Origin: Sipunculus nudus
Lineage: Eukaryota > Annelida > Sipuncula > Golfingiida > Sipunculidae
NCBI GenBank assembly: GCA_026874595.1
Contig: CM049306.1
Coordinates: 66,160,019-66,224,018 of the forward strand
DNA length: 64,000 bases
Reading direction: 5' to 3'
Made by a program: the position numbers and the translations under genes. Positions 541 to 54,105 of this stretch are shown one piece after another. The first letter of the stretch is position 1. Each line of letters opens with the position of its first letter. Below the pieces are notes generated by a model. That model was not told where the DNA came from and did not search any database. It saw only the letters and a list, made by a program, of their open reading frames with translations.

Positions 541-2434
541 CAAGGGACCTATGGGTCACTGTGCTCAGCTGACGTTAACCTTGAAGGTAAAAATCTAAAA
601 TAATATCTAATGGAGATAAAGTGTAAGAGGAAGAGGTAATAAAGGCCATGGTTGGTTTATATGATTGGTTTGTATTGATGAGCAAGAAATTATTGCAAAA
701 ATATTTTGTGACCTGACCATGTGTTTCCTAATGTTGAAACTAAAGCATGTGAGCAGTTTGTGAACAAATGATCTGTACTATTACCATGATCATTAGTTGG
801 TTTTTTGATTAACTGTTGACATTTCAGTAGTTTACACATTTGTTCAATTGAATCTATTTTTTTGCATAATATATATTTTTAATTATATATGTATTTTTTA
901 TGAAATGTATACAGCTGAAATATAGCTATTTAACAACATAAAACAGGGCAAACAAAACCTGATCTCAAATTCTGCTGAGGCAGGAAAATAATGAACAAAT
1001 GTTTGTATTAAATCCTGATTTTTTTATCACATCAATTATTTTCTAATTTAAGTTTATATTTCTATACATTTCCAATTTAACATATATATCTGAATATAAA
1101 AGTTGATTCATAATTCTCAATTGCATCATCATAAATCTCAATCTTGTCAGATAACACCACATCATGCATACAAATGTTATTTATTTTTTACCACAAAAAT
1201 ATATCTTTTAAATCTGCAAAACAATAAATATCTAAAAATAATACTTGATTTAGATTTCAAAATTTTTAATTGTGTCTTTATTTATCCAGAATGTGCTTGA
1301 TATTTTATAATAATTTAAGCATACTGATGGGTTCATTTATATTTGTTAAAATCATTTAAAAGAAAATTGATTTCTTTAAAAATGCTACATTACACAACAT
1401 TGCATCTTCTGGATTGCACCTTGAATTATTTTTTCAAGGAAAGTTTTTGCATATCGGAGTGGAAACAGCATTACAATTAAGGAGATACAGTGAAAACAAT
1501 AACAATTACTGCATAACACTTGGTGGGTTGGGTTTGCGGGGGGGGGGGGGGGGGGGGGGGGGGGAGATGATTGGGGTGGTGATATGAGAATAACTGTACA
1601 CCTGTCACAGCAGGGGTTCTCCCCCAGTGACGGTAACAAATCAGAAACCCTGGCATAGCTGACTTCCAGTGACCTGGAGTGGGACCCTGCATCTGTAATC
1701 AAAGCAAGTCACTACAGAAAAAAAAATCAATAACTAGCTTAATTTTCAAGCTTTTATTTTCAAATTTCAGATTTAGACAAACTAAATATTTATGTTTACA
1801 TGCTGTAAAAATTAAATCAATGGTGCTTACAGGAAAAAAATGTGCCATGGTCAAAGTTGGGCAAAATTTAAGGTACTGATTTTTTTTTATGCTAATAACT
1901 TAAAAAATATACAAAATTCAGATCTAATTTTGGGTAAACAATTGAATCTTAATTAAACATAGTTATATACTTGCGAAAATAGACTCTAGTTTCAAAATTT
2001 TTCATTTTAAGTGAGTTATTATTTTTCCTGATTTTTTACAAAGTCCATTATGTTTGGGCCCATAACTTAAAGAATTTATACTTTACAGACTTAATTTCTG
2101 GCATGTACATAGGAACTATATAGAGGAATATTTATGGTAAATATGAGGAAAAACAGATGTGTGGTTTTGATATTAGGCAGTCCTGAAGTGTGAAAACAGG
2201 ATTTTAATAAAAAATTGAGGTTTTTCTCTAATTTCTCAAAGGAACGAAGTCGCAAAGACCCAGTTTTCGGCTTGGTAGGAAATCTTGGGGACATCTAACA
2301 TTATGCTAAATTTTGGATTCCTAGGTCTTACGGTTTCAAAACGTGCCACATCTACGGATGGACGGACAGATGGACGGACGACGGACAATGGACCAAGACT
2401 ATAGCTCAGATGACTTATAGTCAGCTGAGCTAAA
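541..2434 (+). mobile_element. Complete family A element, subtype A1 (non-coding, Helentron-like)
   Basis: The left end reads CAAGGGACCTATGGGTCAC followed by GCTCAGCTGAC. The right end is a hairpin with arms TAGCTCAGATGACT and AGTCAGCTGAGCTA, then AAAA. Between them are about 1 kb of A1-specific sequence, a 27-G run at 1538-1564, one core repeat (the phrase GGCAAAATTTAAGG near 1860, CATTATGTTTGGGCCC near 2047, GGTTTTGATATTAGGCAG near 2164) and a short ACGG-rich tract at about 2350-2380. Other A1 copies start at 13072, 44200 and 49447. No ORF has protein-like content. It sits inside the E repeat with A on both sides and no obvious target duplication. Confidence 0.8.
1538..1564 (+). repeat. Poly-G tract inside A1 element
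   Basis: A run of 27 G residues. Other A1 copies carry a G run at the same place after 'gggttgggtttgcg' (about 14074 and 46314), so the tract is a fixed part of the element whose length varies between copies. Confidence 0.9.
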
Positions 2435-2686
2435 AATGACACAAGAATAAGACCAGATGACCTACTCAGATTATCGAGTAGATTCAGAGGAAGAAAATAA
2501 ATCATAGTTTTCAATTGGCTACATTGCTTTTTTTAAAGTTGCATTTACCCAATCTCTTCTTATCAAACTGGCAGAAACCTACCATAGAATAATTCTTGTA
2601 AAGTTTAAACCAATCACCTTAACAGTTTCATCATAAAACAGTGTATAAGCTTGAGAGTCTAAATTTACATTTTCCCTTGTAAAAAA
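2435..2686. repeat. Resumed E repeat followed by F-type flank
   Basis: 2435-2500 continues the E repeat interrupted by the A1 element ('gaccagatgacctac', compare 'agacaagatgac' near 5960). From about 2510 the text matches 57735-57910 ('caattggctaca', 'acccaatct', 'ctggcagaa', 'cagtgtataagct'). No gene is seen. Confidence 0.6.
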
Positions 2687-5310
2687 CAAGGGACCTATGG
2701 GTCACGACGCTCAGCTGTTATATATGATAAAAAAATGTTATTTAGAAATGAGGCACATGCTGGTTTTGTGTGGTAATAAATATAAGCTGTATTATGAGTT
2801 GTTGTTGTTTAGCTTATGTATGATTTTGATAGTACCTTTGGAGACAGGGAAGAGGATTGATTTCATTTATTTTATTAACAAATGGACACACAGATTTTGA
2901 CTTGGCCATATAACTTATAAGCAAAACATATAATATAAGAGTTTAACTATTTATTAAAAAAAATACAAATATTGTCCCAAATATAATTTTTATTAAAAAT
3001 AATAAGAGAATCATATGATTTTTTAAAATGAAATATAACTGATACGATTATTAAAATAATATTAAAGAATATATTCATGAATGCATTCATGAATACATTT
3101 AAAAAGTATTTGCATGAGTATTCATATATTTTCATTTTTACCTAAATTCCCATTCTTTATGCAAGAAATTTTATAATGGAGTACAAAATCATATTCGTAT
3201 TTAAATACAATTACAAAGTATTTGCACAATGTCTGGAATTTATTCAGTTTTCACCAAACAATGATGTTGAGAATTCAGAATATACAAAATTCACACATTT
3301 AAATAATGATCATAAGTACCTGGTTTTATGGCTTTTATTTATATTAAAAAATAACTGTAAAAAATTCATTTTGGACTAATTTCACATCAATGTACACACT
3401 AGACACAGCAGGAATCTAGATTAATATTATCAACTGCATCTTTGTCTAATTTCCTTCATATGATTCCTAATGATTAGTAATGAATAATATGATTCACTTC
3501 TTTATCATTAAAATTGAACTGAAAAATGCCATAGGTGACTGCATGGTGTTATTTGGTTTATGTGACATTCTACCCATCGATACAAGATTCTTATATCATC
3601 AGTAACTGCAAGTTAATTTCCTGTTATTATAAACTAACAAATTCCTTTTCTATTTTTCTTTAATTTGTTATTAAAAACCAATAAAAATTTATTAATTTAT
3701 TGTCTTTTGTTATGTTCTTGGTTAAAACTACTAGATGAGTTGGGTTGGACACCTGGATCAACTGTGGCTTGCCATAAGCTGCCTGGATTCCATGTATGCC
3801 TCGCCTCAAGCGTGCATAATTTGATGAAAGGTCAACAAGGTCAACATACAGGTGACTCAAGAGGGGCTGGAGAGAGCCAAAGTCTGACAGGGTCTCATAA
3901 AAACATTAATAAAAGCTACAATTTTTGGCCAATTTCTTTCAGCTTTCTAAACTAAAAAGCTGAAATGCTTATGTGTGCATGATATGAAAATTATATCAAC
4001 AGTGCTCATGGGAAACAAACGTGCCATGGTCACAGTTGGGCAAAATTTAAGGTACTAATTTTATATTTATACTAAATAAAATTTGAAAAATTCAGAACTA
4101 ATTTTGGGTATTCAATTGAATCTTGATTAAATAATGTTACATCCCTGACAAAAAAATCTCTAGCTTCAGCAATGCTCTTGTTAAGGGAGTAAATATATTT
4201 CTTGATTTTTTACAAAGTGCATTATGTTTGGGCCCATAACTTAAAACAATTACACAATACTGACATCATTCTGGCATGTGCATAGAGAATGAAAAATATG
4301 TATATTATTTATGATTAAAGTCAGATCAGTGGTTTTGATATTAGGCAGTCTTGAAGTGTAACAATGGGTTTTTAATGGAAAAATGAATTTTTTCATTAAT
4401 ATCTCGAATGTCCTAGTGACCAAATTCTTGGCATGGTAGGGCATTTTGGAGACATCTAACTGTATGCCGAATTTATGGAACTTAGAGCTGAAGCTGGGGA
4501 GCTGAGCTCTTGCAAACTGCATAACACTAGCTTGATGTAAACAATATGTTACATGGTGCTTGAAAACTTGATTAAAATCTACAGTTTTTGATCAACTGGT
4601 TTCAAATTTTTGGTATTAACAGTTGAAATGCAAACAAAAACATGTTGTGAAAATTAAATCCACAGAACTTACAGGAAAAAAACGTGCCATGGTCAAAGTT
4701 GGACAAAATTTAAGGTACCAATTTTTTATTTTTATTAATATTTTAAAAAATTTAAAAGATTTTCATCTAATTTTGGGTATACAATTTAATTTTGATTAAT
4801 TAAAGTTATATTACTGGAAAAAAGGTCCATAGCATTGACATTTTTTGTGTTAAGTGATCAAATATCTTTTCTGATTTTTTACAAAATGCATTATGTTTGG
4901 GCCCATAACTTTTTGAAATTAAATAGTACAGACATAATTTCTGGCATGTACATAGGAACTATATAGAGGAATATTTATGGTAAATATGAGGTAAAACAGA
5001 TGAGTGGTTTTGATATTAGGCAGACCTGAAGTGTGAAAATAGGATTTTAATAAAAAATTGAGGTTTTTCCTTAATTTCTCAAAGGAACGAAGTCGCAAAG
5101 ACCCAGTTTTCGGCTTGATAGGAGATCTTGGGGACATCTAACATTATGCTGAATTTTGGATTCCTAGGTCTTACGGTTTCAAAACGTGCCACATCTACGG
5201 ACGGACGGACGGACGGACGGACGGACGGACGGACGGACGGACAGACGGACGGACGACGGACAATGGACCACGACTATAGCTCAGATGACTTATAGTCAGC
5301 TGAGCTAAAA
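2687..5310 (+). mobile_element. Complete family A element, subtype A3
   Basis: The left end is CAAGGGACCTATGGGTCAC, then GCTCAGCTGTTATATATG, which defines subtype A3. The body has A3-specific AT-rich sequence up to about 3960, then two core repeats of about 670 bp (GGCAAAATTTAAGG at about 4033, its variant GACAAAATTTAAGG at about 4706). A long (ACGG)n tract lies at 5197-5259. The right hairpin TAGCTCAGATGACT/AGTCAGCTGAGCTA is followed by AAAA. The flanks join to reproduce the uninterrupted repeat at 57890-57925, so the ends are well placed. It is non-coding. Confidence 0.82.
5197..5259 (+). repeat. (ACGG)n microsatellite of an A element
   Basis: About fifteen ACGG or ACAG units in a row, directly before the conserved 'acaatggaccacgac' and the right-end hairpin. 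The same tract in the same position marks other A copies at about 17353-17403, 18092-18131, 24262-24342, 24842-24905, 35975-36018, 47111-47163 and 48040-48075. Confidence 0.92.
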
Positions 5311-9788: not shown

Positions 9789-10052
9789 CAAGGGACCCAT
9801 GGGTCACGGCGCTCAGCTGTTATATCTGATCACAAAATATGACTGGAAGAGGAGGTATGCAAATGCTGGTTTTGTGTGGTAATATAAGCTGTATTAAGAG
9901 TTGATGGTGTTTAACTCACATTATGTAAGATTTTGATAATATCCTTGAAGACAGGGAAGAGGACTGATGTCATTTATATTATTTACTTTCAGAAATTGTG
10001 TGCTATTGTTTCATAGGTTTTGACTTGGCCATTGCAGTAGAATTATTTGAAA
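9789..10052 (+). mobile_element. Family A3 left-end fragment
   Basis: It starts CAAGGGACCCATGGGTCAC then GCTCAGCTGTTATATCTG and follows the A3 body ('tgctggttttgtgtgg', 'ttttgacttggccat') until a C element interrupts it. No matching right end was identified. Confidence 0.65.
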
Positions 10053-10750
10053 AATAGACATTTCTTGGCACCGCAGGTACCAGAGTATCCCCAGACATAG
10101 TACGCCCCCCCCCCCCCCCCCTTTAAGAATAGGCCCTAATTTTTAGCAGCATATACTGACACTTGGCAAGCAATTATTGTTTCTTCCATCTATCAATCCA
10201 CAATCTTTTTGAAGATGTTGGTCCTGTGACCTTGACCTTTTGGCACATCACAAGGCTATCCAAGATCTTCTGTCACCTTGATTTTGGGACCAATCCATGC
10301 AAACGATCCTGAGATATTTAAGAGTTTGTGTAATTTTCAGCAGAAATTGACCTATTCAAGGTCAAGGTCACTCTCTTAGCCTTCTGTGACCTTGACCTTT
10401 GACCTCATGACCCCAAAATCAATTCGGGTCTTGCTTTTCAAATTGGACATATACAAGTCAAGTTTGAAATCCATACATCAATAAAAGCAGGAATTATCAT
10501 CCAGAAACTAATTTTTGGACAGATGGCTCCTGTGACCTTCACCTTTGACCTTGTGACCTCAAAATTTATGGGGTCTTCCACTCTTGGCCGGTGAACTATA
10601 TGTGCAAGTTGAAAGATCTGAGATGAATTGTTTGGCTGAAAATGCATCCACAATTTTTTTAAAAATGTGTCCTGTGACCTTGACCTTTGACCTAAAAATC
10701 AATTCGGGCAGTGGCCAGCGGCGGGACCGTCGTGAAACCATAGTATCCCA
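10053..10750 (+). mobile_element. Family C element, right end truncated
   Basis: The left end reads 'aatagacatttcttggcacc', with the 5' motif GTATCCCCAGAC and a C run at about 10104-10121. The body contains core repeats with tgaccttgacctttgacct at 10387-10405 and 10675-10693. The usual right end (GTATCCC then GTCTGGGGATAC) is cut just after 'accatagtatccca' and joins sequence resembling an A left end ('gggccatgaagctcagctg'). Confidence 0.7.
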
Positions 10751-11224
10751 CGGGCCATGAAGCTCAGCTGAATTCAAGGGGTAAAATGAACTCAGAGAGT
10801 GTTCAAAATCAAGCATTAAACATTAGATATAGGTTACAGTGATTTTATTCTACATCCAACTGCTACCATTTGTGTCCATATGACTAAAACAGTGCTAAAA
10901 TCATGTTTCTTTCACAAATCTTGCAGAATTTAGGTCACAGTGACATTATTTCAAATTTCCAAGAAATTTTTACAGGAACCTCCCTTGATCTTAATAAAAT
11001 TAGAAGTTTCTAGGTCCAACTGTAATCAATCATGCAAATCTGTCCTATAGGGTGCTCAAATCATGTTGTTTCACAAATCTTTCAGAATATAGGTCACTAT
11101 GATCTAATTTCTAATTTCCCTGGATGTACAGTTAGAAGTTTCTAGGTCCAACTTTTACGGTTTGTGCCCTATTAACATCAAGACCATTTCATTTGAATGT
11201 CTCAACTAAAAGACACCACAGAAA
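10751..11224 (+). mobile_element. Truncated A-ended element with about 165-bp core repeats
   Basis: It begins with a partial A left end (GGGCCATGAAGCTCAGCTGA). Two copies of a unit containing 'aaatcatgt' and 'cacaaatctt.cagaat' (about 10897 and 11058) lie about 165 bp apart, each followed by 'agaagtttctaggtccaac'. The last phrase also occurs in the 336-bp repeat element at 34000-36068. No right end is seen before the B element. Confidence 0.5.
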
Positions 11225-12684
11225 ACTAGAATACGGGTAATCGACAAGCGACTACATGTATCCGCCAAAATCAGAGTGGAACGGGTGAAGTGAGGCAAGG
11301 ATTGAGTGGCATGGGGAAACAGAGTGAGGTGTGTTGCATATTAGCATGGATGTCTGCAGCCGAAATGTGTATAAAGGTTGTGCCACCTACCACAAATCCA
11401 GACAGCTGTCCAAGTTGTATACATATGCAAAATTTTAGGCAGAAAAGTCAAACCACTACAAGTATATGAGTGATTTTTATCCCACACCAAACAAAAAAGT
11501 CTTGTGCAAAAATGGTTGGAGGTGGCCCCTCCAGTTTTGTGTATGATGAAGAGCTATGTAAGATCTATACACATGCAAAACTTTGGCCCAATTGGTCAAA
11601 CAGTTCCAAAGATATGATCTTGGAGGTCTAAAGCGTAAACTAGAATGTAGGTGGCGCCACCTGTCATAAAATCAAGAAAGCTGTCCAGGAAGTGTAAACC
11701 TGCAAAATTTTAGGCAGATAAGTCAAACCACTACAGATATATGAGTGATTTTAGCCCACGGCAGACAAACAGATGGATGCTGTGCAAAAATGGTTGCAGG
11801 TGGCCCCTCCAGTTCTGTGTATGATAAAAAGCTATGTGAAATCTATACACATGCAAAATTTTGGCCCAATCAGTCAAACGGTTCCCGAGATAGGAGCTTG
11901 GATGTTTGCAGCGTAAACTATAATGTAGGTGGCGCCACCTGTCATAAAATCAAGAAAGCTGTCCAGGATGTATAAAACTGCAAAATTTTAGGCAGATACA
12001 TCAAACCACTGCTGAGATATGAGTGATATTATCCTACCGCAGACAAACAGACGGACGCTGTGCAAAAATTGGTTGGAGGAGGCGACACCAGTTTTGTGTA
12101 TGATAAAGAGCTATGTGAGATCTATACACATGCAAAATTTTGGCCCAATCAGTCAAACGGTTCCCGAGATATGAACTTTGATGTCTGCAACGTGAACGTT
12201 AATGTAGGTGGTGCCACCTGTCATCAAATCAAGAAAGCTATCCAGGATGTATACACATGCCGAATTTCAGGTCAAAATTATTAGTCAAACCACTGCAGAG
12301 ATATGAGTGATTTTAACCAAAGGCAGATGAACAGATGGACACTGTGCAAACATGGTTGCAGGTGGCGCCACCATTTTTTGTGTATGATATAAAGCTATCC
12401 AAGGGCTACATTTGTACAATTTTTTTTTCCTGATCGGTCAAACGGTTCCCGGGATATGTGAGTTTATGTATGTAAACAGATGCACAAACGGAAGCTGGGC
12501 AGAGAGGAAAGGTCAGAGGTCAAAACAAAATCTGGGCGCAGCAGTTCACATGTAACCTGAACATAATCCCGGGTTTCGTAAAATTCCGCCCAGTGGTTAT
12601 GGAGGAGTTCTCCTGAATCCTATGCCGCGGTGGCGGCATGCAACTGAAAACATAGTATCCGCAAACTCTGTTTTGGTGGATACT
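11225..12684 (+). mobile_element. Complete family B element
   Basis: The left end is ACTAGAATACGGGTAATCG, a small hairpin, then GTATCCGCCAAAA. The right end is CCGCAAACTC...GTTTTGGTGGATACT (the usual form is GTTTTGGCGGATACA). The interior is a tandem array with a period of about 278 bp made of two diverged halves of about 140 bp. Marker phrases are GTAGGTGGCGCC (about 11647 and 11925) and a variant near 12204, with 'gctgtccaggatgtata' and 'gtcaaacggttccc'. No coding content. It inserted into the A1 interior that resumes with 'attactgcataacactt'. Confidence 0.8.
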
Positions 12685-13071: not shown

Positions 13072-16000
13072 CAAGGGACCTATGGGTCACTGTGCTCAGC
13101 TGACGTTAACCTTGAAGGTAAAAATCTAAAATAATATCTAATGGAGATAAAGTGTAAGAGGAAGAGGTAATAAAGGCCATGGTTGGTTTATATGATTGGT
13201 TTGTATTGATGAGCAAGAAATTGTTGCAAAAAATATTTTGTGACCTGACCATGTGTTTCCTAATGTTGAAACTAAAGCATGTGAGCAGTTTGTGAACAAA
13301 TGATCTGTACTATTACCATGATCATTAGTTGGTTTTTCGATTAACTGTTGACATTTCAGTAGTTTACACATTTGTTCAATTGAATCTATTTTTTTGCATA
13401 ATATATATTTTTAATTATATATGTATTTTTTTTATGAAATGTATACAGCTGAAATATAGCTAATTAACAACATAAAACAGGGCAAACAAAGCCTGATCTC
13501 AAATTCTGCTGAGGCAGGAAAATAATGAACAAATGTTTGTATTAAATCCTGATTTTTTTATCACATCAATTATTTTCTAATTTAAGTTTATATTTCTATA
13601 CATTTCCAATTTAACATATATATCTGAATATAAAAGTTGATTCATAATTCTCAATTGCATCATCATAAATCTCAATCTTGTCAGATAACACCACATCATG
13701 CATACAAATGTTTATTTATTTTTTACCACACAAATATATCTTTTAAATCTGCAAAACAATAAATATCTAAAAATAATACTTGATTTAGATTTCAAAATTT
13801 TTAATTGTGTCTTTATTTATCCAGAATGTGCTTCATATTTTATAATAATTTAAGCATACTGATGGGTTCATTTATATTTGTTAAAATCATTTAAAAGAAA
13901 ATTGATTTCTTTAAAAATGCTACATTACACAACATTGCATTTTCTGGATTACACCTTGAATTATTTTTTCAAGGAAAGTTTTTGCATATCGGAGTGGAAA
14001 CAGCATTACAATTAAGGAGATACAGTGAAAACAATAACAATTACTGCATAACACTTGGTGGGTTGGGTTTGCGTGGGGGGGGGGGGGGGGGATTGGGGTG
14101 GTGATATGAGAATAACTGTACACCTGTCACAGCAGGGTATCTCCCCCAGTGACTGTAACAAATCAGAAACCCTGGCATAGCTGACTTCCAGTGACCTGGA
14201 GTGGGACCCTGCATCTGTAATCAAAGCAAGTGACTACAGAAAACAAGGGACCCATGGGTCACGGCGCTCAGCTGATCGTGATTGGACTATAAATGTTTCT
14301 CCACTGGGATACTATATCGAGTCGATAAAGCTTATGAATATCATGGACATGTTGGGCTATTATAAAGGAATGTAATGTAATACGTGAGTAAATGATAAAT
14401 GAAATAACCTGACTGATGGATTAATAGAGTCATATATAGTGGTTTATGTTTTATTTATTAAAGAGGTGTAGAAAATTGTGATATATTTGAGCAAATATGA
14501 ATGCAATGACAGCAGTAATAAGCAGTAGTAGAATGATGATAAGGCTATTTGTTGAAGGATCTAAAGTGTATGGTAGTCTGCAAGCTTCCAATTTGACAGA
14601 TATGATGTTATGATTAACTATGCCGATGAAGTGATTTATGAATTTGTGACTGTATGACACAATATCTCTTTAGTCTTGACAAGGTACATTATTGTGATGC
14701 CCACTATGTCTACATATTACACAATATTGACATAATTTCTGGCATGTACATAGGTACCTATGGACGAATAGTTATACAAAATATTAAAGTATGAATATAT
14801 CTGATTCATCTTGTTCTTGCTTACTGAGGCTGACTTTGGGATGGGGAAATATTCTATTGTAATGTTTTTCATTTATATAAGAATATGAAAAGCTAAGAGG
14901 AAAGGGGCCCTCCTACTTGGTTATAGTAAAGTTCTAAATATATGATTGCAAACTAATACTCTGACAAGACTGTCATGAAGAAAAACAGTAAAAGTTTTGA
15001 GATACTGTTATGTATGAAAATTTACAGATGGAAAAATTACGGATGAACAGGCAAGTGGACAGAATGGACTAATACCTTCACTTTCAAGGGAATAATGCAT
15101 TTAAGTTTATATATAAGCCTATTTTTTTTTAAGCATATCCACTTTTTCCATTAAGAAGTTTTTATCTGAATCATTTTTTTTATTTACAGGTTTTATAAAT
15201 TTTAAATGAAAAAACCTGAAAATATAAGTTAAAATATTAGAATTGTTGCAAAAGTTGCAATCATTATATATACAGAGTAAAAAACTGAAACTATAAGTTA
15301 AAATATTAGAATTGTTGCAAAAGTTGCAATCATCATATATCCAGAGTGTAGCTCATATTGGGTCATATTATGCATACACATATATTTTATTATTTTTAAA
15401 TCATAAATGTTTAAACTGAATTTAAAAGAAAATAATGCCACAACATGGCATCTACAAGAATATTCCTTGAATCACTATTAAAAAGTTTTGCACATTGAAG
15501 TTTTCAGTACCTGCTTAATTTTATTCACCAAAATAAAATAAAAGATTCAGTAAATTTGATAAAATAAAACATCTTTTCAAATAAAGTATACACACTGTTG
15601 GTTGAATGAGAAACAAACAATATCATTGTGCTAATTACTATCCAAGTTTTAATTAATTACTGAAATTAATAGTCAATTTCACACCTGGTGAAGTTTTTAC
15701 TCCTCTGAAGTAAGGAATTACTTATCTCATGAACATCCACACTTTCATAGCAATACACCATTTTGTGGACACAATTAAATGTACACTTTAATCATTGTAA
15801 CCCTGGTGGTACAATACAAAATCTAAAATGTAGCATAGCCTAGAATAAGAATGAATCACATACAGAAAATCATAACATTCATCTAGTTTATGCACCATCT
15901 GGGGGGGGGGGGGGAGGGAGTGCAGAGCAGAGGGGAAGCCTGCTGGTAGTGGCCAAGCTGACCCAAGGCAAGCTGCCTGGGGTGGGTTACATAATGCAAG

Positions 16001-18180
16001 AGAAGGCTGTACTACTAGGTGGGCTAGATGTAAACAACACTTGACATGGTGTATGAAAACATGAATAAAAGCTATTCTTTCCAATCAATTTCTTTGAAAT
16101 TTCAGATTTTAAAAGATTAAATCCTTATGTATATATGCTGTGAAAATTAAATCAACAGTGCCAAAGTTGGACAAAATTTAAGGTATTGATTTTTTATTTA
16201 TGCTAATAACTTGAAAAATTTGCAAAATTCAGATCTAATTTTGGGTAAACAATTGAATCTTGATTAAATAAAGTTATATTCCTGAAAAAAAGTCAGGTTC
16301 AGCAATTCTCTTGTGAGTAAATATATTTCCTGATTTTTTAACAAATTGCATTATGTTTTGGCCCATAACTTCAAAATAATACCCAATACTAACCTAAGTT
16401 TTGGTATGTTCATAGAAAATGTATAAAAGAATGTGAATCCTAAATACGATGAAAACAGATCAGTGGTTTTGATATTAGGCAGCCCTGAAGTGTAACAATG
16501 GTTTTTATTATGGAAAACAGAGTTTTTTTCCTTAATATCTCGAAGTCCTGAACAAAGTCCTAATGACCCAATTTTCGGTATGGTAGGAGATTTTGGGGAC
16601 ATCTAAAATTATGTCAACAGCCTGGGGAGCATAGAGATGTGCACTGAATGACCTACAGTCATCAAAGTGGACTGCTTGACAATGTAGGGAATACAACAAG
16701 AGCCTCCAAAAAAATTCAATAACTAGCCTAATTTTGCAGCTTTTATTTTCAAATTTCAGATTTTAACAGATTAAATCCTTATGTATACATGGTGTGAAAA
16801 TTAAATCCACAGTACTTACAGGAAAAAAACGTGCCATGGCCAAAGTTGGGCAAAATTTAAGGTACCAATTTTATATTTTTGCCAATATTTAAAAAAATTT
16901 AACAAATTTTGATCAAATTTTTGGTATACAATTAAATTTTGATTAATATAAGTTGTATTACTGGAAAAAAGTCCCTACTTTTAACACTTTTGGTCTTAAG
17001 TGACCAAATATCTTCCTGATTTTTTTACAAAGTCCATTATGTTTGGGCCCATAACTTTTTTAAATTATACAATACTGACTTAATATCTGGCATGTACATA
17101 GGAACTATATAGAGGAATATTTATGGTAAATATGAAGAAAACCAGATGAGTGGTTTTGATTTTAGGCAGTCCTGAAGTGTGAAAATAGATTTTTAATCAA
17201 AAATTGAGGTTTTTCCTTAATATATCAGGGGAACGAAGTCCTATTGACCAAATTTTTGGCATGGTAGGAGATTATGGGGACATCTAACTGTATGCCGAAA
17301 TTCAGATTCGTAGGTCCAACGGTGTCAAAACGTGCCAGTTTTAACGAAGGACATCCAGACGGACGGACGGACAGACGGACGGCACGACAGACGGACGGAC
17401 GACGGACAATGGACCATGACTATAGCTCAGATGACTTATAGTCAGCTGAGCTAAAAAAATCAATAACTAGCTTAATTTTCAAGCTTTTATTTTTAAATTT
17501 CAGATTTAGACAAACTAAATATTGATGTTTACATGCTGTGAAAATTAAATCAATGGTGCTTACAGGAAAAAAACGTGCCATGGTCAAAGTTGGGCAAAAT
17601 TTAAGGTACTGATTTTTTTTTTATGCTTATAACTTAAAAAATTTACAAAATTCTGATCTAATTTTGGGTAAACAATTGAATCTTAATTAAACATAGTTAT
17701 ATACTTGAGAAAATAGAATCTAGTTTCAAAATTTTTCATTTTAAGTGAGTTATTATTTTCCCTGATTTTTTAACAAGGTCCATTATGTTTGTTGGGCCCA
17801 TAACTTAAAGAATTTATACTTTACAGACTTAATTTCTGGCATGTTCATAGGAACTATATAGAGGAATATTTATGGTAAATATAAGGAAAAACAGATGAGT
17901 GGTTTTGATATTAGGCAGTCCTGAAGTGTGAAAATAGGATTTTAATAAAAAATTGAGGTTTTTCTTTAATTTCTCAAAGGAACGAAGTCGCAAAGACCCA
18001 GTTTTCGGCTTGGTAGGAGATCTTGGGGACATCTAACATTATGCTGAATTTTGGATTCCTAGGTCTTACGGTTTCAAAACGTGCCACATCTACGGACGGA
18101 CGGATGGACGGACAGACGGACGGACGACGGACAATGGACCACAACTATAGCTCAGATGACTTATAGTCAGCTGAGCTAAA
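13072..18180 (+). mobile_element. Family A1 element interrupted by an A2 element
   Basis: The left end CAAGGGACCTATGGGTCAC lies at 13072, followed by the A1 body nearly identical to 541-1700. At 'gactacagaaaa' (14243) an A2 element intervenes. A1 text resumes at about 17457 with 'atcaataactagcttaa' exactly where 541-2434 would continue. The right hairpin and GAGCTAAAA end it at about 18180. Confidence 0.8.
14244..17456 (+). mobile_element. Family A element, subtype A2, nested in A1
   Basis: The left end CAAGGGACCCATGGGTCAC is followed by GCTCAGCTGATCGTGATTGG, which defines subtype A2. The body includes a duplicated 'gttgcaaaagttgcaatca' segment (about 15246 and 15314), a G run at 15901-15914 and two core repeats (GACAAAATTTAAGG near 16177, GGCAAAATTTAAGG near 16848, about 671 bp apart). 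An ACGG tract and the right hairpin follow. A second A2 copy lies at 21225-24393. Non-coding. Confidence 0.8.
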
Positions 18181-39751: not shown

Positions 39752-42609
39752 TGTACCCGCCAAAACAGAGTTTTGCGGATACTATGTTTTAAGTCGCTGC
39801 CTCCATCGCCACATAGGTTTCCGGAGAACTCCTCCATAACCACTTGGCAGAATTTTTTTAAATTCGGAATTATGATCGGTCAAATGTGAACTGCTGCGCC
39901 CTCATTTTTGGTTGACCTCTGACCTTTCCTCTCTGCCCAGCATCCATTTGTGCGTCTGTATCCACACATAAACCCATATATCTCGGGAACCGTCTGACCG
40001 ATCAGGCTAACAATTTTGCACAAATGTAGCCCTTGGAAAGCTTTATAACATACACTAAAAATGGTGGTGCCACCTGCAACCATTTTTGCATAGCGTCCAT
40101 CTGTTCATCTACCTTGGGATATCTCTGCATTGGTTGGACTTATCCACCTGAAATTTTGCATGTGCATACATCCTGGACAGCTTTCTTGATTTTATGACAG
40201 GTGGCGCCACCTACATTCACGTTTAAGCTGCAGACATCCAAGCTCATATCTCTGGAACCGTTTGACCAGTTGGGCCAAAATTTTGCATGTGTATAGATCT
40301 CCCTCAGCTCTTTATCATACGCAAAACTGGTGGTGCCACCTGCAACCATTTTAGCACAGCGACTGTCTGTTTGTTTGCTGTGGGATAAAATCACTCATAT
40401 CTCAACAGTGGTTTGATATATCTACCTAAAATTATGCATGCTTATACATCTTGGATTGCTTTCTGGATTTTGTGGCAGGTGGCTCCACCTACATTTATGT
40501 ATACACTGCAGACATTCATGCTTATATCTAAGGACTGGTTTGACATATCCCCCTGAAATTTTGCATGTGTATAGATCTCACATATCTCTTAATCATACAT
40601 AAAATTGGTGGGGCCACCTGCCACCATTTTTGCACAGTGTCTACTGTTCATTTGCCTTGGGATAAAAACACTCATATCTCTACATTGGTTTGACTTATCC
40701 ACCTGAAATTTTGCATGTGTATACATCCTTGACAGCTTTCTTGATTGTATGACAGGTGGCGCCACCTACAATCACGTTTAGGCTGCAGACATCCAAGGTC
40801 ATATCTCTGGAACCATTTGACCGAATGGGCCAAAATTTTGCATGTGTATAGATCTCCCACAGCTCTTTATCATACACAAACTGGTGGCGCCACCAGCAAC
40901 CATTTTTGCACAGCGTCCATCTGTTCATCTGCCTTGGGATAAAATCACTCATATATCGACAGTGGTTTGGCTTATTCACCTGAAATTTTGCATGTTTATA
41001 CATCCTTGACAGCTTTCTTGTTTTAAGACAGGTGGCGCCACCTTCATTCAAATTTACGCTGCAGACATCTAAGCTCATATCTCAGGAACCATTTGACTGA
41101 TTTGGCAAAATATTTGCATGTTTATAGATCTCACATTGTTCTTTAATATAGGCAAAACTGGTGGTGCCACCTGCAATCATTTTTTTGCACAGCATTCGTC
41201 TGTTTGTTTGCCATGGCATAAAATCACTCATATCTAGGGTTGGGACGGTTACCGGTATACGGTATTATCACGATATCTGACAGCTACGGTTATCATACCG
41301 TCAACTTTCCTTTTATCGCGATACCACGATATCAATTTTTGTTCACGATTTTGGTTCACAAGCAAGCCCTTGAAGTACAAAATAAATTTATTTCAAAGAA
41401 TCACATTTATTTTTATAAACCACATGTATTTGAATACACGCGTGTGGGTGGAACCGTGTGCTTACAGACTTCGGGATTAGTCAGAAATGTCCGGAAGTAG
41501 CAGGTTGAATCGGAGAGGACAAAAGCTTGAGAATTCCAGGAGAAAATAACATTATAATGAAAGAGCAATAAATACACATATTTATGCTTTTATTGCATGG
41601 AACGAAAATGTCAACATAAAAGTGTCACCACGGAATCAAACATTCCATACGGGTTGCATATTTTGCCATATAAAATTGAGATGGTTTATTGTGCCATGAT
41701 TGCTATGACACGCTCTCCGAAAATTCGCCGGGATTCTTCGGCTTTTATGTAGCTATAGGAAACTGATGGAAAGTTGTGTCAAGGGTGATTCGACGATGGG
41801 GTCAGGACTTCCCACGCCTCAAGCTTGCACACCTGCAGGACCTTCATGCAACTTACATCACTTAATGAGTCATTCTGTGGTACTGGCACAATTGGTATAA
41901 ATGTTATTAATACTTAACTCCTTGTATAAAGTCAAGACTTTAAAGGTGGTTGTTATAAATACCATTATTGATGGGTTATGAATGCCATTATATATAATTA
42001 AAAATATCTCGATATCACGGTATATCGCGATAAAATTTGAATAATTATCATGATATCAAAAACCCATATCGTCCCAACACTACTCATATCTCGGCAGTGG
42101 TTTGACATATCTGCCTAAAATTTTGCAGGTTTATACATCTCGGATAGCTTTCTGGATTTTTTATGGCAGGTGGGGCCACCTACATTTATGTATACGCTGC
42201 AGACATTCAGGCTTATATCTCAGGACTGGTTTGACATATCCCCCTGAAATTTTGCATGTGTATAGATCTCACATAGCTCTTAATCATACACAAAATTGGT
42301 GGCGCCACCTGCCACCATTTTTGCACAGCGTCCATCTGTTTGTCTGCCATGGGCTAAAATCACTCATAAACATATAGTGGTTTGACTTATCTGCCTCAAA
42401 TTTTGCATATGTATACAACTTGGACAGCTTTTTGGATTTTGTGGTAGGTGGCGCAACCTACATACATGTTTCGGCTGCAGACATCCAGGCTATTATGCAA
42501 CACACCTCACTCTATTTCCCCTTGCCACTCAATCCATGCCTCACTTCACCTTTCCTTCTCTGATTTTGGTGGATACACGTAGTCGCTTGTTGACTACCCA
42601 TATTCTAGT
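39752..42609 (-). mobile_element. Family B element, minus strand, split by a hAT element
   Basis: On the minus strand it begins ACTAGAATATGGGTAGTC at 42609 and ends with the hairpin GTATCCGCAAAAC/GTTTTGGCGGGTAC at 39752. The interior is a long array of the 278-bp B repeat with GGTGGCGCCACC at 40200-40211, about 40756, 40886, 41034 and 42300. A hAT-type element at 41235-42082 interrupts it. Removing that element and one copy of its target duplication restores 'atcactcatatctcggcag'. Confidence 0.8.
41235..42082. mobile_element. Non-autonomous hAT-type element with 8-bp target duplication
   Basis: The left end is TAGGGTTGGGACGGTTACC. The right end, read as reverse complement, is TAGTGTTGGGACGATATGG. 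Exact 8-bp duplications CTCATATC flank it at 41227-41234 and 42083-42090. The interior has 'tatcgcgata' and 'cacgatatc' motifs near both ends, forming longer imperfect terminal inverted repeats. No transposase is encoded. An 8-bp duplication and TAG-type ends are diagnostic of the hAT superfamily. Confidence 0.9.
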
Positions 42610-44199: not shown

Positions 44200-47100
44200 C
44201 AAGGGACCTATGGGTCACTGTGCACAGCTGACGTTAACCTTGAAGGTAAAAATCTAAAATAATATCTAATGGAGATAAAGTGTATGAGGAAGAGGTAATA
44301 AAGGCCATGGTTGGTTTATATGATTGGTTTGTATTGATGAGCAAGAAATTGATGCAAAAAATATTTTGTGACCTGACCATGTGTTTCCTAATGTTGAAAC
44401 TAAAGCATGTGAGCAGTTTGTGAACAAATGATCTGTACTATTACCATGATCATTAGTTGGTTTTTCAATTAACTGTTGACATTTCAGTAGTTTACACATT
44501 TGTTCAATTGAATCTATTTTTTTGTATAATATATATTATTAAATATATATGTATCTTTTATGAAATGATTACAGTTGAAATATAGCTAATTAACAAAATA
44601 AAACAGGGCAAACAAAGCCTGATCTCAAATTCTGCTGAGGCAGGAAAATAATGAACAAATGTTTGTATTAAATCCTGATTTTTTTATCACATCAATTATT
44701 TTCTAATTTAAGTTTATATTTCTATACATTTCCAATTTAACATATATATCTGAATATAAAAGTTGATTCATAATTCTCAACTGCATCATCATAAATCTCA
44801 ATCTTGTCAGATAACACCACATCATGCATACAAATGTTTATTTATTTTTTACCACAAAAATATATCTTTTAAATCTGCAAAACAATAAATATCTAAAAAT
44901 TATACTTGATTTAGATTTCACAATTTTTAATTGTGTCTTTATTTATCCATGATGTGCTTCATATTTTATAATAATTTAAGCATACTGATGGGTTCATTTA
45001 TATTTGTTAAAATCATTTAAAAGAAAATTGATTTCTTTAAAAATGCTACATTACACAACATTGCATCTTCTGGATTACACCTTGAATTATTTTTTTCAAG
45101 GAAAGTTTTTGCATATCGGAGTGGAAACAGCATTACAATTAAGGAGATACAGTGAAAACAATAACAACTAGAATACGGGTAGTCTACAAGCGACTACGTG
45201 TATCCGCCTAAATCAGAGTGGAACGGGTGAAGTGAGGCATGGATTGAGTGGTAAGGGGAAATAGAGTGTTGCATATTAGCATGGATGTCTGCAGCCAAAT
45301 TGTATATGTAGGTTGCTCCCCCTACCACAAAAATCCAGAAAGCCGTCCAAGTTGTATACATATGCAAAATTTAAGGCAGATAAGTCAAACCACTACATGT
45401 ATATGAGTGATTTTAGCCCGTGGCTGACAAACAGATGGACGCTGAGCAAAAATGGTTGCAGGTGACGCCACCAGTTTTGCGTATGATAAAGAGCTATGTG
45501 AGAACTATACACATGCAAAACTTTGGCCCAATCGGTCAAACGGTTCCCAAGATATGAGCTTGGATGTCTGCTGCATAAACTAGAATGCAGGTGGCCCCAC
45601 CTGTCATAAAATCAAGAGAGCTGTCGGGGATGTATAAACCTGCAAAATTTTAGGCAGATATGTCAAACCACTGCCGAGATATGAGTGATTTTATCCCATG
45701 GCAGACAAACAGACAGGAGCTGTGCAAAAATGGCTGCAGGTGGCGCCACCAGTTTTGCGTATGATAAAGAGCTATGTGAGATCTATACACATGCAAAATT
45801 TTGGCCCAATCGGTCAAACGGTTCCCGAGATATGAGCTTGGATGTCTGCAGCGCAAACGTGAATGTAGGTGCCGCCATCTGTCATAAAATCAGAAAAGCT
45901 ATCCAGGATCATGCCGAATTTCAGGTGAATTAGTCGAGTCACTGCAGAGATATGAGTGATTTTAACCCAAGGCAGACAAACAGATGGACACTGTGCAAAC
46001 ATGGTTGCAGGTGGCGCCACCATTTTTTGTGTTTGTTATAAAGCTCTCCAAGGGCTACATTTGTGCAAAAAAATTTTCCTGATCGGTCAAACGGTTCCCG
46101 AGATATGTGGGTTTATGTGTGGAAACAGACGCACAAACGGACGCAGAGTGCATAGGAAAGGTCAGAGGTGCGCAGCAGTTCACATGTGACCCGAACATAA
46201 TCCCGGGTTTCGTAAAATTCCGCCCAGCGGTTACGGAGGAGTTCTTATAGTATCCGCAAAACTCTGTTTTGGCGGATACAATTACTGCATAACACTTGGT
46301 GGGTTGGGTTTGCGGGGGGGGGGGGGGGGGGATTGGGGTGGTGATATGAGAATAACTGTACACCTGTCACAGCAGGGGACCTCCCCCAGTGACTGTAACA
46401 AATCAGAAACCCTGGCATAGCTGACTTCCAGTGACCTGGAGTGGGACCCTGCATCTGTAATCAAAGCAAGTGACTACAGAAAAAAAATCAATAACTAGCT
46501 TAATTTTCAAGCTTTTATTTTCAAATTTCAGATTTAAACAAATTAAATATTTATGTTTACATGCTGTGAAAATTAAATCAATGGTGCTTACAGGAAAAAA
46601 AGTACCATGGTCAAAGTTGGGCAAAATTTAAGGTACTGATTTTTTTTTATGCTAATAACTTAAAAAATTTACAAAATTCAGATCTAATTTTGGGTTAACA
46701 ATTGAATCTTAATTAAACATAGTTATATACTTGAGAAAATAGACTCTAGTTTCAAAATTTTTCATGTTAAGTGAGTTATTATTTTTCCTGATTTTTTACA
46801 AAGTCCATTATGTTTGGGCCCATAACTTAAAGAATTTATACTTTACAGACTTAATTTCTGGCATGTACATAGGAACTATATAGAAGAATATTTATGGTAA
46901 ATATGAGAAAAAACAGATGAGTGGTTTTGATATTAGGCAGTCCTGAAGTGTGAAAATAGGATTTTAATAAAAAATTGAGGTTTTTCCTTAATTTATCAAA
47001 GGAACGAAGTCGCAAAGACCCAGTTTTCAGCTTGGTAGGAGATCTTGGGGACATCTAACATTATGCTGAATTTTGGATTCCTAGGTCTTACGGTTTTAAA

Positions 47101-47215
47101 ACGTGCCACATCTACGGACAGACGGACGGATGGACAGACAGACGGATGGACGGACGGACGACGGACAATGGACCACGACTATAGCTCAGATGACTTATAG
47201 TCAGCTGAGCTAAAA
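44200..47215 (+). mobile_element. Family A1 element carrying a B element
   Basis: The left end is CAAGGGACCTATGGGTCAC with GCACAGCTGAC (one base off GCTCAGCTGAC). The A1 body follows 13072 closely. A B element lies at 45167-46270, inserted at 'caataaca'. A1 resumes with 'attactgcataacacttgg'. A G run at about 46314-46331, one core repeat, an ACGG-rich tract at 47111-47163 and the right hairpin follow. Confidence 0.82.
45167..46270 (+). mobile_element. Family B element nested in A1
   Basis: The left end is ACTAGAATACGGGTAGTC and the right end is GTATCCGCAAAAC with GTTTTGGCGGATACA. Other A1 copies (about 1495 and 14030) show the empty site 'caataacaattactgc', so the insertion lies between two A residues with no duplication. 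The interior array includes GGTGGCGCCACC at 46010-46021 and near 45740. Confidence 0.85.
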
Positions 47216-49376: not shown

Positions 49377-49679
49377 CAAGAACAAATGTTCAGATGAAAA
49401 TGACCTCAAAACTTTCTTTTTATCAATTTAATCCTCACAAAAGAAACAAGGGACCCATGGGTCACTGTGCTCAGCTAAAGTTGACCTTGAAGGTAAAAAT
49501 CTAAAATAATATCAAATGGAGATAAAGTGTAAGAGGAAATGGTAATATAGGCCATGATTGGTTTATAAGATTGGTTTTTATTGATGCACAAGAAATCCAA
49601 ATAATATTGGTTTGTATTGATGCGCAAGAAATTCATTTTGTGACCTGACCATGTGTTTCCTAGTGTTCGTATTTTCAAA

Positions 49680-50640
49680 ATTTTTTTTCAAGCATATTAA
49701 CACCTCAAATGAATTTTTTGTAATTACGAGACACAGAGGCCTGACTCTAATTAATTAGTTCTGGGCCGATGCTGTCACTTGGGCAAGGTGTGATAACTAC
49801 AGCTAGTTGTGCAACACCAGGCTCTGTATACCCCTAGTAAGCGTCTGAGCAGTTTATCCAAGAGCACTTGTGTATTATAAACCATATCTCGTTTGTACTC
49901 AAGCAAGCATAGTTCGTCAGCTTTGGCTTGGATGTCAGGCCAAAAAAACTCAGCAGTTTACTAGCAAGAGTATTGGTGAAGCATCATTTGCACATCCCTT
50001 GTGCTCAAGCTGGTTGAGATGCGAGGCCATAGCACGCAGGCCTGGTCATACAATTCATTCTGAGAGGGCAATCGAGTAAAAAAATCTTAAACTTGCCGCT
50101 ATTCAGCTTATTTACTGTCAAGAAGAACACCAATCCAACACTATCGTCTTGCTGTCACTGGCCAGAGATATGGAGTCAAAGAAGAGAAAACGGACTGCAA
50201 TATGTGTGTGCCGCACTGGCGCCGCCTGCGGGCTGTTAAAGAAACTAACTGAGCTACAATAATGTCAATGTCATTTGACCTTACCTTCCCGTGAATTTTT
50301 TTTTTTTTGGGGGGGGGGGGGGGGAAAATAGCACACAAGTATCCTAAAAACAAGTTAAAATGGGTTTAACCCATCAAACTCTGCAATAAATCCGACATTT
50401 TTATAAGTTCTGGTCGTAAATTACGTGGGTCGAAGAGAAACACTGTGTTCCCTCAGTGGTATAGCATTAAGTTAATCATTAAATGACGTACAAAACTGGC
50501 CCTAGACCCCTGACCAAATTTTAAAAAATTTGTTTTTCAACAAGAAAAGCTTGTCCCCTGACGCTTTCGGAAAAACGGCACTCTACTGTATCTGTATTAT
50601 TATAGTGTATATAAAAAGGATTTTTACTTAATTCAACAAT
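49680..50640. other. Non-A stretch inside the A1 element
   Basis: No repeat family from this window matches. Short ORFs exist (for example 49870-50079) without recognisable motifs. A T9/G run lies at about 50298-50325. This may be a different transposable element, but no ends were found. Confidence 0.4.
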
Positions 50641-51097
50641 GCTTACAGGATAAAAAAGTTCATTCATAATTACTTAATACTTAAAAAAGGACAGACAGAT
50701 TTGTAGACAAACAAAGTTGATAATATATGAAGTTTCAATTATTTCTTAATTTATTTATTATATCAAACTTTTTTAAACTTTAACATCTGCAATAATACAT
50801 GACTGAATATATAATTTGCTTTCAAATTTCAGACTTAAATAGCTTAATTCCAAACACATACAGCAAATAAAAGTTTTTTCAGCAGTGCTTATAGGAAACA
50901 TTTCATAATTAATATCTATTTAATGATAACATAGAGATGATGGACAGAGCTGATCACATTATGTTCCATTCTCCTAAGGCAAAAATGTTTCAATAAGATC
51001 TTAATTTTTTCTAATCCTATTATTTTTTTAATTAAATAAATTTTACACATTTGCAATAAAAACGAATGTCCCTGTGCACAGGAATCAATGGCAGCAC

Positions 51098-51123
51098 GGG
51101 GGGGGGGGGGGGGGGGGGGGGGG
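51098..51123 (+). repeat. Poly-G tract
   Basis: About 26 consecutive G residues. Other long G or C runs in the window lie near 9034, 10104 (C), 15901, 22830, 30168 (C), 34476, 50309 and 60740. Confidence 0.9.
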
Positions 51124-52514
51124 AGATTGTGGGATAAACTACACTTCTGCATATACATACAGGATATCCAATTCTGCTGAGGCAGGAAAATAATGAACAA
51201 ATGATTGTATTAGATCCTCATTTTTTATCACATCATTTTTTATTATAACAGTCATTTCTATACATTTCTAATATAACATATATATCTGAATATAAAAGTT
51301 GATTAATAATTCTTAAGTGCATCATTATAAATCTTGTCAGACAACACCACATCATGCAAACAAATGTTTATTTATTTTTTACCACAAAAGTATATCTTTA
51401 AATTTGCAAAACAATAAATATCTAAAAATAATAATTGATTCAGATTTCACAATTTTAAATTGTGCCTTTATTCATTCATAATTTGCTTCATATTTTATAA
51501 ATTTTAGCATACTGATGGGTTTAATTACATTTGTTAAAATCATTTAAAAGAAAATTTATTTCTTTAAAAATGCTATATTAACACAACATGGCATCTTCTG
51601 GATTACATCTTGAATTACTTTTTCAAGGAAAGTTTGTGTATATTGGAGTGGAAACAGCATTACAATTAAGAAGGGGGGGGGGGGGAATGAGGTGGTGATA
51701 TGAGAATAACTGTACATCTGTCACAGCAGGGGATCTCCCACAGTGACTGTAACAAATCAGAAACCCTGGCATAGCTGACTTCCAGTGACCTGGCGTGGAA
51801 CCATGCACCTGGAAAAAGCAAATGACTACAATAGAGCCTCAAGAAAAAATCAATAACTTGCCTTATTATAAAGCTTTTATTTTCAAATTTCAGATTTGAA
51901 TACTTATGTTTACATGCTGTGAAAATTAAATCAATAGTACTTACAGGAAAAAAATGTGCCATGGTCAAATTTGGACAAATTTAAGGTACTGATTTTATTT
52001 TTATGCTAATAACTTAAAAAATTAACAAAATTAAGGTCTAATTTTGGGTTAGCAATTGAATCTTAATTAAACAAAGTTATATACTTGGGAAAACAGTCTC
52101 TAGTTTCAAAATGTTTCATGTTAAGTAAGTAAACATTTTTCCTGATTTTTTACAAAGCCCATTTTGTTTGGGCCCATAACTCGAAGAAATTATACTTAAT
52201 GGACTTAATTTCTGGCATTTATATAGGAAATATATAGGAGATTACTTCTGGTAAATATTATAAAAAAGATAAGTGGTTTTGATATTAGGCAGTCCTGAAG
52301 TGTGATAATAGGTTTTTAATCAAAATTTGAGGTTTTTCTTTAATATCTTGAAGGAACTTTTCTGTATGGTAAGAGATCTTGGGGACATCTAACAGTATGC
52401 TGAATTTTGGATTCATAGGTCTAACAGTTCCAAAATGTGTCAGTCTAACAGACAGACAGACGGACAATTGACCACGACTATAGCTCAGATGACTTATAGT
52501 CATCTTAGCTAAAA

Positions 52515-53160
52515 ATTCAACAAATACAAAATACATGACATTTACAAAGGTACAACACACATACATTAAGAATGTGTTGTTTACATGTGATTTTACAACC
52601 ATCACATATACTGAGGTGGCCAGGTGGTGGGTACAGGCAACCTTTTGCAAAATCTGATACAATTGGCAGTCTGCCTAAGCTATAAATAGATCCAGACCGA
52701 AACTTGGACAGGTGTCAAATCTGAAATAGTTGGCAGTCTGTCAAGCTATTTATAGATACAGACAAAATTTTGTCATGTTGCCAAATCTGTTTATACATTC
52801 CTGAATGACTTTGGCTACAATGCTTTTTTCAAGCTGTTTATTCATTAGATTTTTTTTATCAAAATGTTTAGAATAATAAAAGATGCCTATTGGAAGCAAA
52901 ATCACAATACAGATATATTTTATTCATGGATATATCTTTTACATTAGCTCGTCATGGACTCCAATTATTTATGTTGCCTGTACAGCTCTGCTTATACAGC
53001 AGGACCGTAGTGAGGGGACACCTGTGGGATATGGTAAAAGTGTCTCTTAATCAGAGGTAGATACATATGTATTGGGGGGGGGCATGGATGAATGACTAAT
53101 GTTGTGTGTTAAATAAATAACAAAAAGAAACACAGGTACAGATAACAAATTTATTGCTGA
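52515..53160. repeat. Short repeat region, no gene
   Basis: 'ttggcagtctg' occurs twice (about 52665 and 52730) beside 'ctataaatagat' or 'ctatttatagat'. These are inverted relatives of 39290-39350. The remainder to 53160 includes a G-rich run near 53076. No coding sequence is seen. Confidence 0.5.
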
Positions 53161-54105
53161 ACTAGACATTTCTTGGCACCGCAGGTGTCAGAGTATCCCC
53201 AGATACAGCCCCCCCTTTAAGAATAGGCCCCCATTTTTAGCAGCATATACTGACACTTGGTACATCAATAAAAGCAGGAATTATCATCAAGAAACTAATT
53301 TTTTGACAGAAAGCTCCTGTGGCCTTGACCTTTGAATTTGTGGCCTCAAAATTGATATGGATCATCCACTATTAGCAAGTGAGCTATATATTCAAGATGG
53401 AAGACCTGGGATGAAAGTTTGGCTTAAAATGCATCCACCGTAACTTTTAAGATGCAAGTCCAGTGACTTTGACCTTTGACCTAATGACCCTAGAACCAAT
53501 AGGGTTCTTACTTTAGTGGTGGGCCATACATTTGTCACGTTTGAAATCCATATGGCTATCAACACTGGAGATATCATAAGAGGTGTGTAATTTTCACCAT
53601 GTGTCATGACCCAAATGTAAATAGACCTCATCCTATAACCCATCTCTCTACATGTGCATAATATGAAAGAAATCTAGCTGTCCATTAGTTTTTTACTTAA
53701 AATGCTTACAGTACTGTCAAGTGGCAATTATGGGGGTATTAAAAGGCGTAAAAACAAGAAAAGGATAATAGGTGGCGCCACCAGTTTCCGGTATAACACA
53801 AGGCTATCCAAGATCTTTAATCACCTTGATTTTTGGACCAGTCCATGCAAGCTTACTTGAGATATTTAAGAATTTGTGTTATTTTCAGCCAAAATAATCC
53901 TATTCAAGGTCAAGGTCACTCTCATGCATAGGTCATGACCTCATTTTAAATAGGCTTCGTTCCCTTACCTATATCTATACAAATTTAAAGTTTGGAAAAG
54001 ATCAGTGAAATATTTTTTTAGTTATCACGCTCGCAAGGTTTTTCTGCGGCGGCGGACCGTCATGAAACCATCTATAGTAGTATCCCGACTTTGTCTGGGG
54101 ATACA
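53161..54105 (+). mobile_element. Complete, short family C element
   Basis: The left end is ACTAGACATTTCTTGGCACC with the 5' hairpin (one G-T pair) and GTATCCCCAGA. The right end is GTATCCCGAC-ttt-GTCTGGGGATAC. The interior has fewer repeat units than 30115-31561. A TGACCTTTGACCT motif lies at about 53470 and a GGTGGCGCCACC palindrome near 53773. Non-coding. Confidence 0.8.

Follow-up and report, generated by a model that had tools for sequence, protein, structure and literature searches.

Beside the element pearl, two further bivalve elements, CvA and DTC84, are named. Pearl itself has been re-classed as a non-autonomous Helentron in a study of the oyster Crassostrea gigas (PMC7492417), the consulted part of which left open which enzymes move the abundant, array-carrying HINEs. 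In some Helentrons the open reading frame (ORF) is reversed (Thomas et al. 2014; PMC4067079), and the part of that account available to us holds one mention of CTAG, for an endonuclease-less proto-Helentron of Phytophthora. Here we describe three families of elements, A, B and C, in a stretch of 64,000 nucleotides from the 1.43-Gb genome of Sipunculus nudus (C1:66160019-66224018, hereafter the window), which a first-pass annotation had proposed to form a Helentron-like guild united by one end design.

With a probability of roughly 0.88, all three families are non-autonomous members of the Helentron/Helitron2 type of rolling-circle transposons, A being mobilised in trans by one clade of Rep proteins. 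The proposed grouping is borne out for A, a non-autonomous Helentron whose Rep-helicase-endonuclease clade is identified, as it shares its 3' ends with Rep loci, has an exact 3' boundary and empty insertion sites, and carries endonuclease remnants, whereas B and C fit the same class by the anatomy of their ends. All three are new families of the known HINE/pearl-like Helentron kind.

In the host genome, the Rep profile PF14214 has at least 143 matches (fragments counted apart; best 150 of 195 candidates scored), and the DNA downstream of 30 Rep loci (4 + 6 + 12 + 8) was cut and examined. By tblastn, 15 of these belong to clade II (E2/E3/E4-like) and 10 to clade I (E1-like), while five are divergent or unassigned (R3, L028, L033, L040, L045). 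A co-oriented A-type tip lies downstream of Rep at 13 of the 30 loci (element strands are given in Rep sense throughout): at 12 of the 15 of clade II (E3, E4, R5, R10, L025, L026, L027, L029, L031, L039, L041 and L046), at none of the 10 of clade I, and at one of the five others (L040, whose clade is not established). R3 was left out of this count because its A tip lies behind an A-type array. The boundary is exact, as matching among E3, R10, R5 and L029, about 98% alike, stops at CTTG and the T's that they share. Furthermore, the tips of L026, L027, L031 and L046 read TGGCC(C/T)ATGGGCCA-CTAG and not TGACCCATGGGTCA-CTTG; alongside a set of Rep loci, palindrome and tip of A may switch jointly, from GACC/GGTC with CTTG to GGCC/GGCC with CTAG. 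The CACTTG tip subtype of A 32645 (copies are named by family and first window position; Table 1) is common to the loci E3, R5, R10, L029 and L039, and is 94-97% identical over 35-37 bp to R5, R10, L029 and L039. The listing for contig C1 comprises 13 Rep loci (fragments merged), of which three, all outside the 30 examined, are followed 4,147-4,212 bp downstream by a correctly oriented GGCC-type tip; when the 87 tips listed for C1 were placed at random, at least three such Rep neighbours arose in 1 of 20,000 trials. The first-pass annotation had regarded partners encoding a DDE transposase or a reverse transcriptase (RT) as contrary evidence; the loci bearing A ends code for Rep-helicase, although no search for DDE or RT genes was made. 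In R10 (L022 reverse complement), two tandem A-type 3' ends occupy 3410-3475, the Rep element being placed immediately within the 3' terminus of a second A copy.

The E2 and E3 proteins match the Pfam families Helitron_like_N, DUF6570, an N-terminal 'Herpes_teg_N', PIF1 and endonuclease families. In the tip-bearing E3, Helitron_like_N and PIF1 score above the Pfam cut-off; in E2, where no tip was found, endonuclease PF14529 does so with 35.2 bits, and the tip-bearing R5, R10 and L029 show 86-92% identity to E2 that extends through the endonuclease tail. The HUH motif reads SPHIHMLMW in E2, E3 and E4 and SPHAHTLLW in E1, and EFQQRGSPHIHMLMW is present in E2, E3 and E4. The partner of A hence combines a Rep with HUH motif, a PIF1-like helicase and a C-terminal AP-type (apurinic/apyrimidinic) endonuclease fused to Rep/Hel. 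Remnants of the latter persist in A 541, 13072 and 44200, three mutually related and therefore not independent copies, where they lie in Rep orientation close to the 3' tip. They match the E2 endonuclease tail with 37-38% identity over 51-54 amino acids (aa) in tblastn (E 3e-6 to 8e-6; for A 541, positions 705-857, 37% over 51 aa, E 7.7e-6) and, as DNA, the E4 3' region with 70-73% over 228-259 bp (E 3e-34 to 6e-33; for A 541, positions 626-849, 73% over 228 bp, E 2e-33). Similarly, two A copies outside the window, in L025 (minus strand) and L041, have homology to the endonuclease at about 0.4 and 0.14 kb, respectively, upstream of the 3' tip. None was found in the other A, B and C copies tested (3 B, 2 C), and a Pfam search of the short endonuclease pieces gave no match. 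Position and DNA identity favour a Helentron origin of the remnants, whereas by similarity alone a retrotransposon endonuclease would be a possible source.

We propose that a clade-II protein combining Rep (HUH), PIF1 helicase and endonuclease would mobilise A in trans, that the strand would be displaced from the 5' hairpin, and that termination may occur when the two inverted repeats pair, a mechanism put forward for Helitron2 in the consulted part of PMC3627910. Between A and the Rep loci the 3' end is common and exact and the 5' end is a candidate in E3, where two candidate A-type 5' ends lie 6.1 and 6.8 kb upstream of the ORF with a B copy nested between them; the 5' start of an A-type Rep element would be TTTTT-AGCTCAGCTGA or its E3 variant. 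Linking A, with its more than 14,000 tips, to a Rep clade of the same genome makes end recognition and array spread testable, and the fixed polarity of the ends decides where initiation and termination are sought.

The end motifs of all three families occur far above chance, set in the window by dinucleotide shuffles. The A palindrome has 12 matches at up to one mismatch (0.06 in shuffles), the B hairpin 7 (0) and the C hairpin 4 rows at three places, one on both strands (0.04), while the complementary motifs GCTCAGCTGAC, GTATCCGCCAAAA and GTATCCCCAGAC occur 30, 18 and 5 times (0.26, 1.3 and 0.11). Genome-wide counts of zero-mismatch matches, the A and B patterns having some two-way or free places, gave 14,161 A tips, 13,716 A hairpin ends, 3,240 B tips and 1,248 C tips, and the reversed pattern, used as negative control for each, gave 0. 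The three-family end design thus stands as to its motifs, and needs correction as to polarity, the unrelatedness of B and C, and the universal array. What had been taken for the 5' tip (CAAG or ACTAG) is the Rep-sense 3' end, since the layout matches that of Helitron2, Helentron and Cg_HINE; the true order is inverted repeat, hairpin, CTTG or CTAG, and T. Because some Helentrons carry a reversed ORF, polarity was argued from both end anatomy and Rep strand, and the two lines agree. In copies printed with both ends, the 5' side consists of a T run and an 11-13 nt repeat placed at the tip within a hairpin; on the 3' side this repeat recurs inverted and subterminal, 22-32 nt from the end (counted by hand on the printed ends), followed by a second, palindromic hairpin and by CTTG (A) or CTAG (B, C) plus T. 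CTAG is also the tip of one A subclade. Folded as single-stranded DNA and compared with shuffles, the 5' hairpins are more stable (z -5.8 in A, -6.0 in B and -3.1 in C), as are the 3' hairpins of B (z -2.4) and C (z -2.8). A GTCC-type microsatellite lies inside A, and a satellite-like array is often present in A, B and C; the central tandem array claimed for every family occurs in B copies, A 32645-36066 and C 30116-31564, whereas none was called in A 541-2432 and C 53162-54106. Runs of 27 and 26 G stand inside A copies at window 1538-1564 and 51098-51123, and pairs of A tips exactly 315 bp apart, co-oriented within the pair, occur at C1:31350195/31350510 and C1:70558647/70558962.

The families had also been described as having no common primary sequence. 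This holds for A against B or C (5-8 nt in common in the pairs tested) and for the intact C 53162-54106, which has 8 nt in common with each B 5' end, within the random range, yet at the same tip offset. It fails for C 30116-31564: at offset 25-27, a word of 13-15 nt within GATACTATGTTTTCA recurs in the 5' ends of four among five B copies, the fifth having 8 nt in common with it, whereas 257 of 258 pairs drawn at random from the window had at most 11 nt in common. Furthermore, the palindrome GGTGGCGCCACC occurs 29 times exactly in the window and 0 times in shuffles, with sites in A 32645 (the only A copy), the B arrays, C 30116 and C 53162, and also at window 5325 in a clade-I-like stretch. A literature search with GGTGGCGCCACC returned nothing related, and one with the three end motifs no transposon title among the matches listed. 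In one array unit of each of four B copies (window 11650, 27802, 33242 and 45590) the palindrome is followed by CATT, CTAG and TT, so that these units, which lie some 410-420 bp away from the true B tip, resemble a Helitron 3' end; in the remaining B array units that position reads CACG, CATG or other variants.

Insertion was assessed at empty sites, that is, paralogous sites found with joined flanks, of which 20 chosen comparisons were displayed from a longer list. The cleanest is that of B 45168, filled acAA[element]AAtt and empty acAAtt at three places. A insertions target runs of A (T), mostly with two extra A's: +2 at the empty site of A 541 in the clade-I locus R8, at all three of A 21225 and at both of A 32645, and +2, +3 and +2 for A 14244 at L041, window 46384 and window 1622. 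For B 32827 the empty site, in L026, is approximate. The target is thus TT or T-rich, with no longer duplication, clearly in A and B 45168 and imperfectly in B 32827 and C; consistent target duplications, which would have spoken against the grouping, were not seen beyond about two A's in the displayed comparisons. Because the window at 6-543, 2432-2688 and 5306-7757 matches the tract downstream of R8, the stretch hosting A 541 and A 2687 is taken as clade-I-derived.

It is very improbable that the A tips found close to Rep genes reflect the abundance of A, with copies having nested there by chance. Family A is indeed dense and nests freely, and the R3 tip behind its A-type array may be one such case and L025 another; but the tips are clade-specific and co-oriented, the C1 permutation and a near-constant distance in three loci argue otherwise, and the boundary alignments, in which the 98% homology of four copies stops exactly at the tip, largely refute it. 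Less improbable, though still doubtful, is a true 2-bp AA (TT) target duplication, as the gain amounts to exactly two A's at B 45168 and at most of the A sites displayed. Before the 14,161 A tips, the two bases read AA in 13,664 cases, non-A then A in 380, and non-A next to the tip in 117; the base adjoining the tip is therefore non-A in 0.8%, against at least 2.7% for the one further out, which suggests element-borne A's, and PMC4067079, in its available part, counts the terminal T's of Helentrons as element sequence. Several observations weigh against our interpretation nonetheless. In poly-A targets an AA duplication is inseparable from element-borne A's, and A 44200 gains +3 A at two comparison sites, A 2687 +6 A at two sites (R8 and window 57814-58008), and C 30116 has 4, 4 and 3 extra bases at window 2911, 37367 and 19376. 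No A tip was found in the cut stretches of E2, L035 and L042 (3 of 15 clade-II loci), L025, although counted, is a weak case in that its Rep homology ends some 1.9 kb short of the tip, and among the examined loci none holds both A ends and the Rep ORF in one verified element. The E3 endonuclease PF03372 scores 21.8 bits, below the cut-off of 24.5. The A 3' palindrome is not significantly stable in its four forms (z -0.8, +0.9, -1.4, -0.7); counts of its variable pair in one sequence context genome-wide (A-T 6,050, G-C 768, G.T 29, A.C 56) fit a pairing constraint, although the change may be one ancestral double change within a subfamily. Finally, the clade-I result controls for chance proximity, yet is silent on clade-I ends, and neither a B nor a C tip was found downstream of Rep at any of the 30 loci in fuzzy searches (up to 9 mismatches for B, up to 13-14 for C; at least 143 Rep matches in the genome).

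For this last reason B and C were not filed as proven Helentrons. The Rep-helicase loci anticipated by the first-pass annotation were found with A-type 3' tips. The absence of B/C tips at Rep, together with the three B and two C copies lacking endonuclease homology, would suit a scenario in which Helentron status is confined to A, B and C being elements similar to miniature inverted-repeat transposable elements, or of another kind, with convergent hairpins and a different enzyme. We consider this unlikely, as B and C have the same asymmetric plan, with the 5' repeat in the tip hairpin and the 3' repeat subterminal before a second hairpin; A-type Rep loci of the CTAG subclade (L026, L027, L031, L046) likewise end in CTAG plus T; B 45168 inserted between A's with +2; and the GGTGGCGCCACC box is common to all three. 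Comparison by eye of PIF1 family matches (best 150 of 256 candidates) with the listed C1 tips, to 25.4 Mb for B and 89 Mb for C, found none adjacent. Four co-oriented C tips at C1:63713994, 63723754, 63733516 and 63743278 form a tandem series spaced 9,760-9,762 bp, a unit large enough for an autonomous Helentron. In clade I, no end was reached in R13 and R8, extended 8 kb downstream and repeat-rich beyond Rep for the whole remainder of the 16-kb cuts, nor by comparing E1 upstream with two further loci, its homology with the C13 locus reaching the first base of the cut E1 stretch; the 3' end of E2 was not found. An end type D, composed of hairpin GTGTCGTTCCGACAC, AT, CTAG and then T, occurs at about 2485-2506 of R3 (L021 reverse complement), about 370 bp past the last Rep-protein homology, and at about 13860-13884 of E4, and is absent from the window at up to 5 mismatches. 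Improbable too, in our estimate, is a broader view in which end sub-families co-evolve with Rep clades, B and C would be driven by an unsampled Rep, possibly of clade I with its >11-kb repeat tracts, and GGTGGCGCCACC, which also occurs in a clade-I locus, would be a shared functional site (e.g. for helicase pausing or Rep binding) explaining why arrays build up in these elements.

The copies recognised in the window are collected in Table 1. Two A hairpin ends, at about 18665 and 48122, were left without partner end. At window 10725-10800 a decayed GGCC-type A tip abuts a C-element 5' start, apparently a chimeric or deleted junction.

Table 1. Copies and single ends of families A, B and C in the window
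Feature	Positions	Strand	Evidence
A copy, TGT subtype; 3' tip 541, 5' hairpin end ~2432	541-2432	-	ends, empty site, endonuclease remnant
Decayed endonuclease C-terminus in A 541	705-857	-	tblastn to E2, DNA match to E4
A copy	2687-5307	-	ends; comparison sites
A 3' tip, 5' end not found	9789-9819	-	tip motif
C copy, mutated tip base, 5' hairpin missing	10054-10745 (right limit approximate)	-	ends
B copy, 278-bp array	11226-12684	-	ends, array
A copy with putative pairing of outer ends, split by A 14244-17453	13072-18178	-	endonuclease remnant 13228-13389
A copy nested in A 13072	14244-17453	-	three empty sites
A copy with putative pairing of outer ends, split by A 21225-24390	19143-24956	-	ends
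A copy, nested	21225-24390	-	three empty sites
B copy	27083-28239	+	ends, array
A 3' tip	28784-28814	-	tip motif
C copy, 288-bp array, mutated 5' hairpin	30116-31564	-	ends; three comparison sites
A copy, opposite orientation, interrupted by A 32645-36066 (pairing inferred)	31588-37601	+	ends
A copy, CACTTG subtype, 336-bp array	32645-36066	-	ends; two empty sites
B copy nested in A 32645-36066	32827-33998	-	ends; approximate empty site
B copy, 277-bp array	39752-42608	+	ends, array
A copy containing B 45168	44200-47212	-	endonuclease remnant 44356-44511; two comparison sites
B copy, cleanest insertion site	45168-~46280	-	three empty sites
A copy (pairing inferred)	49447-52511	-	ends
C copy, intact 5' hairpin	53162-54106	-	hairpin, complementary motif, ends
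B 3' tip	56457-56501	-	tip, hairpin
B 3' tip	60170-60214	-	tip, hairpin

Compared with known systems, the families described here depart from canonical Helitron1 (5'-TC, no 5' hairpin, A/T insertion) in having a 5' hairpin and an A/A (T/T) site. Instead, they resemble Helitron2 as characterised in the consulted part of PMC3627910, with a 5' asymmetric terminal inverted repeat (ATIR) in the tip hairpin and a 3' ATIR that precedes a hairpin and lies 20-30 nt from the end, although the partner protein of A has an endonuclease domain, unlike Helitron2. With the Helentrons and HINE/DINE-1 elements of PMC4067079, in its available part, they have in common Rep/helicase with C-terminal endonuclease (in the partner of A), subterminal inverted repeats (subTIRs), a 3' stem-loop, T-rich insertion and, as regards the 3' end of A, derivatives sharing their partner's ends, and differ from the Helentrons there by the CTTG/CTAG 3' tips. 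The comparison with pearl, CvA and DTC84 of bivalves, drawn in the first-pass annotation, is by description and not by sequence. The same is true of the likeness to Cg_HINE of C. gigas, for which the consulted part of PMC7492417 describes a 5' subTIR of 11-12 bp with a complementary inverted repeat, a GTCC/GTCY microsatellite, central satellite-like repeats, a 3' subTIR followed by a palindrome, and oligo-T insertion with no duplication; unlike Cg_HINE, unrelatable there to autonomous elements, family A is tied to a Rep-helicase-endonuclease clade.

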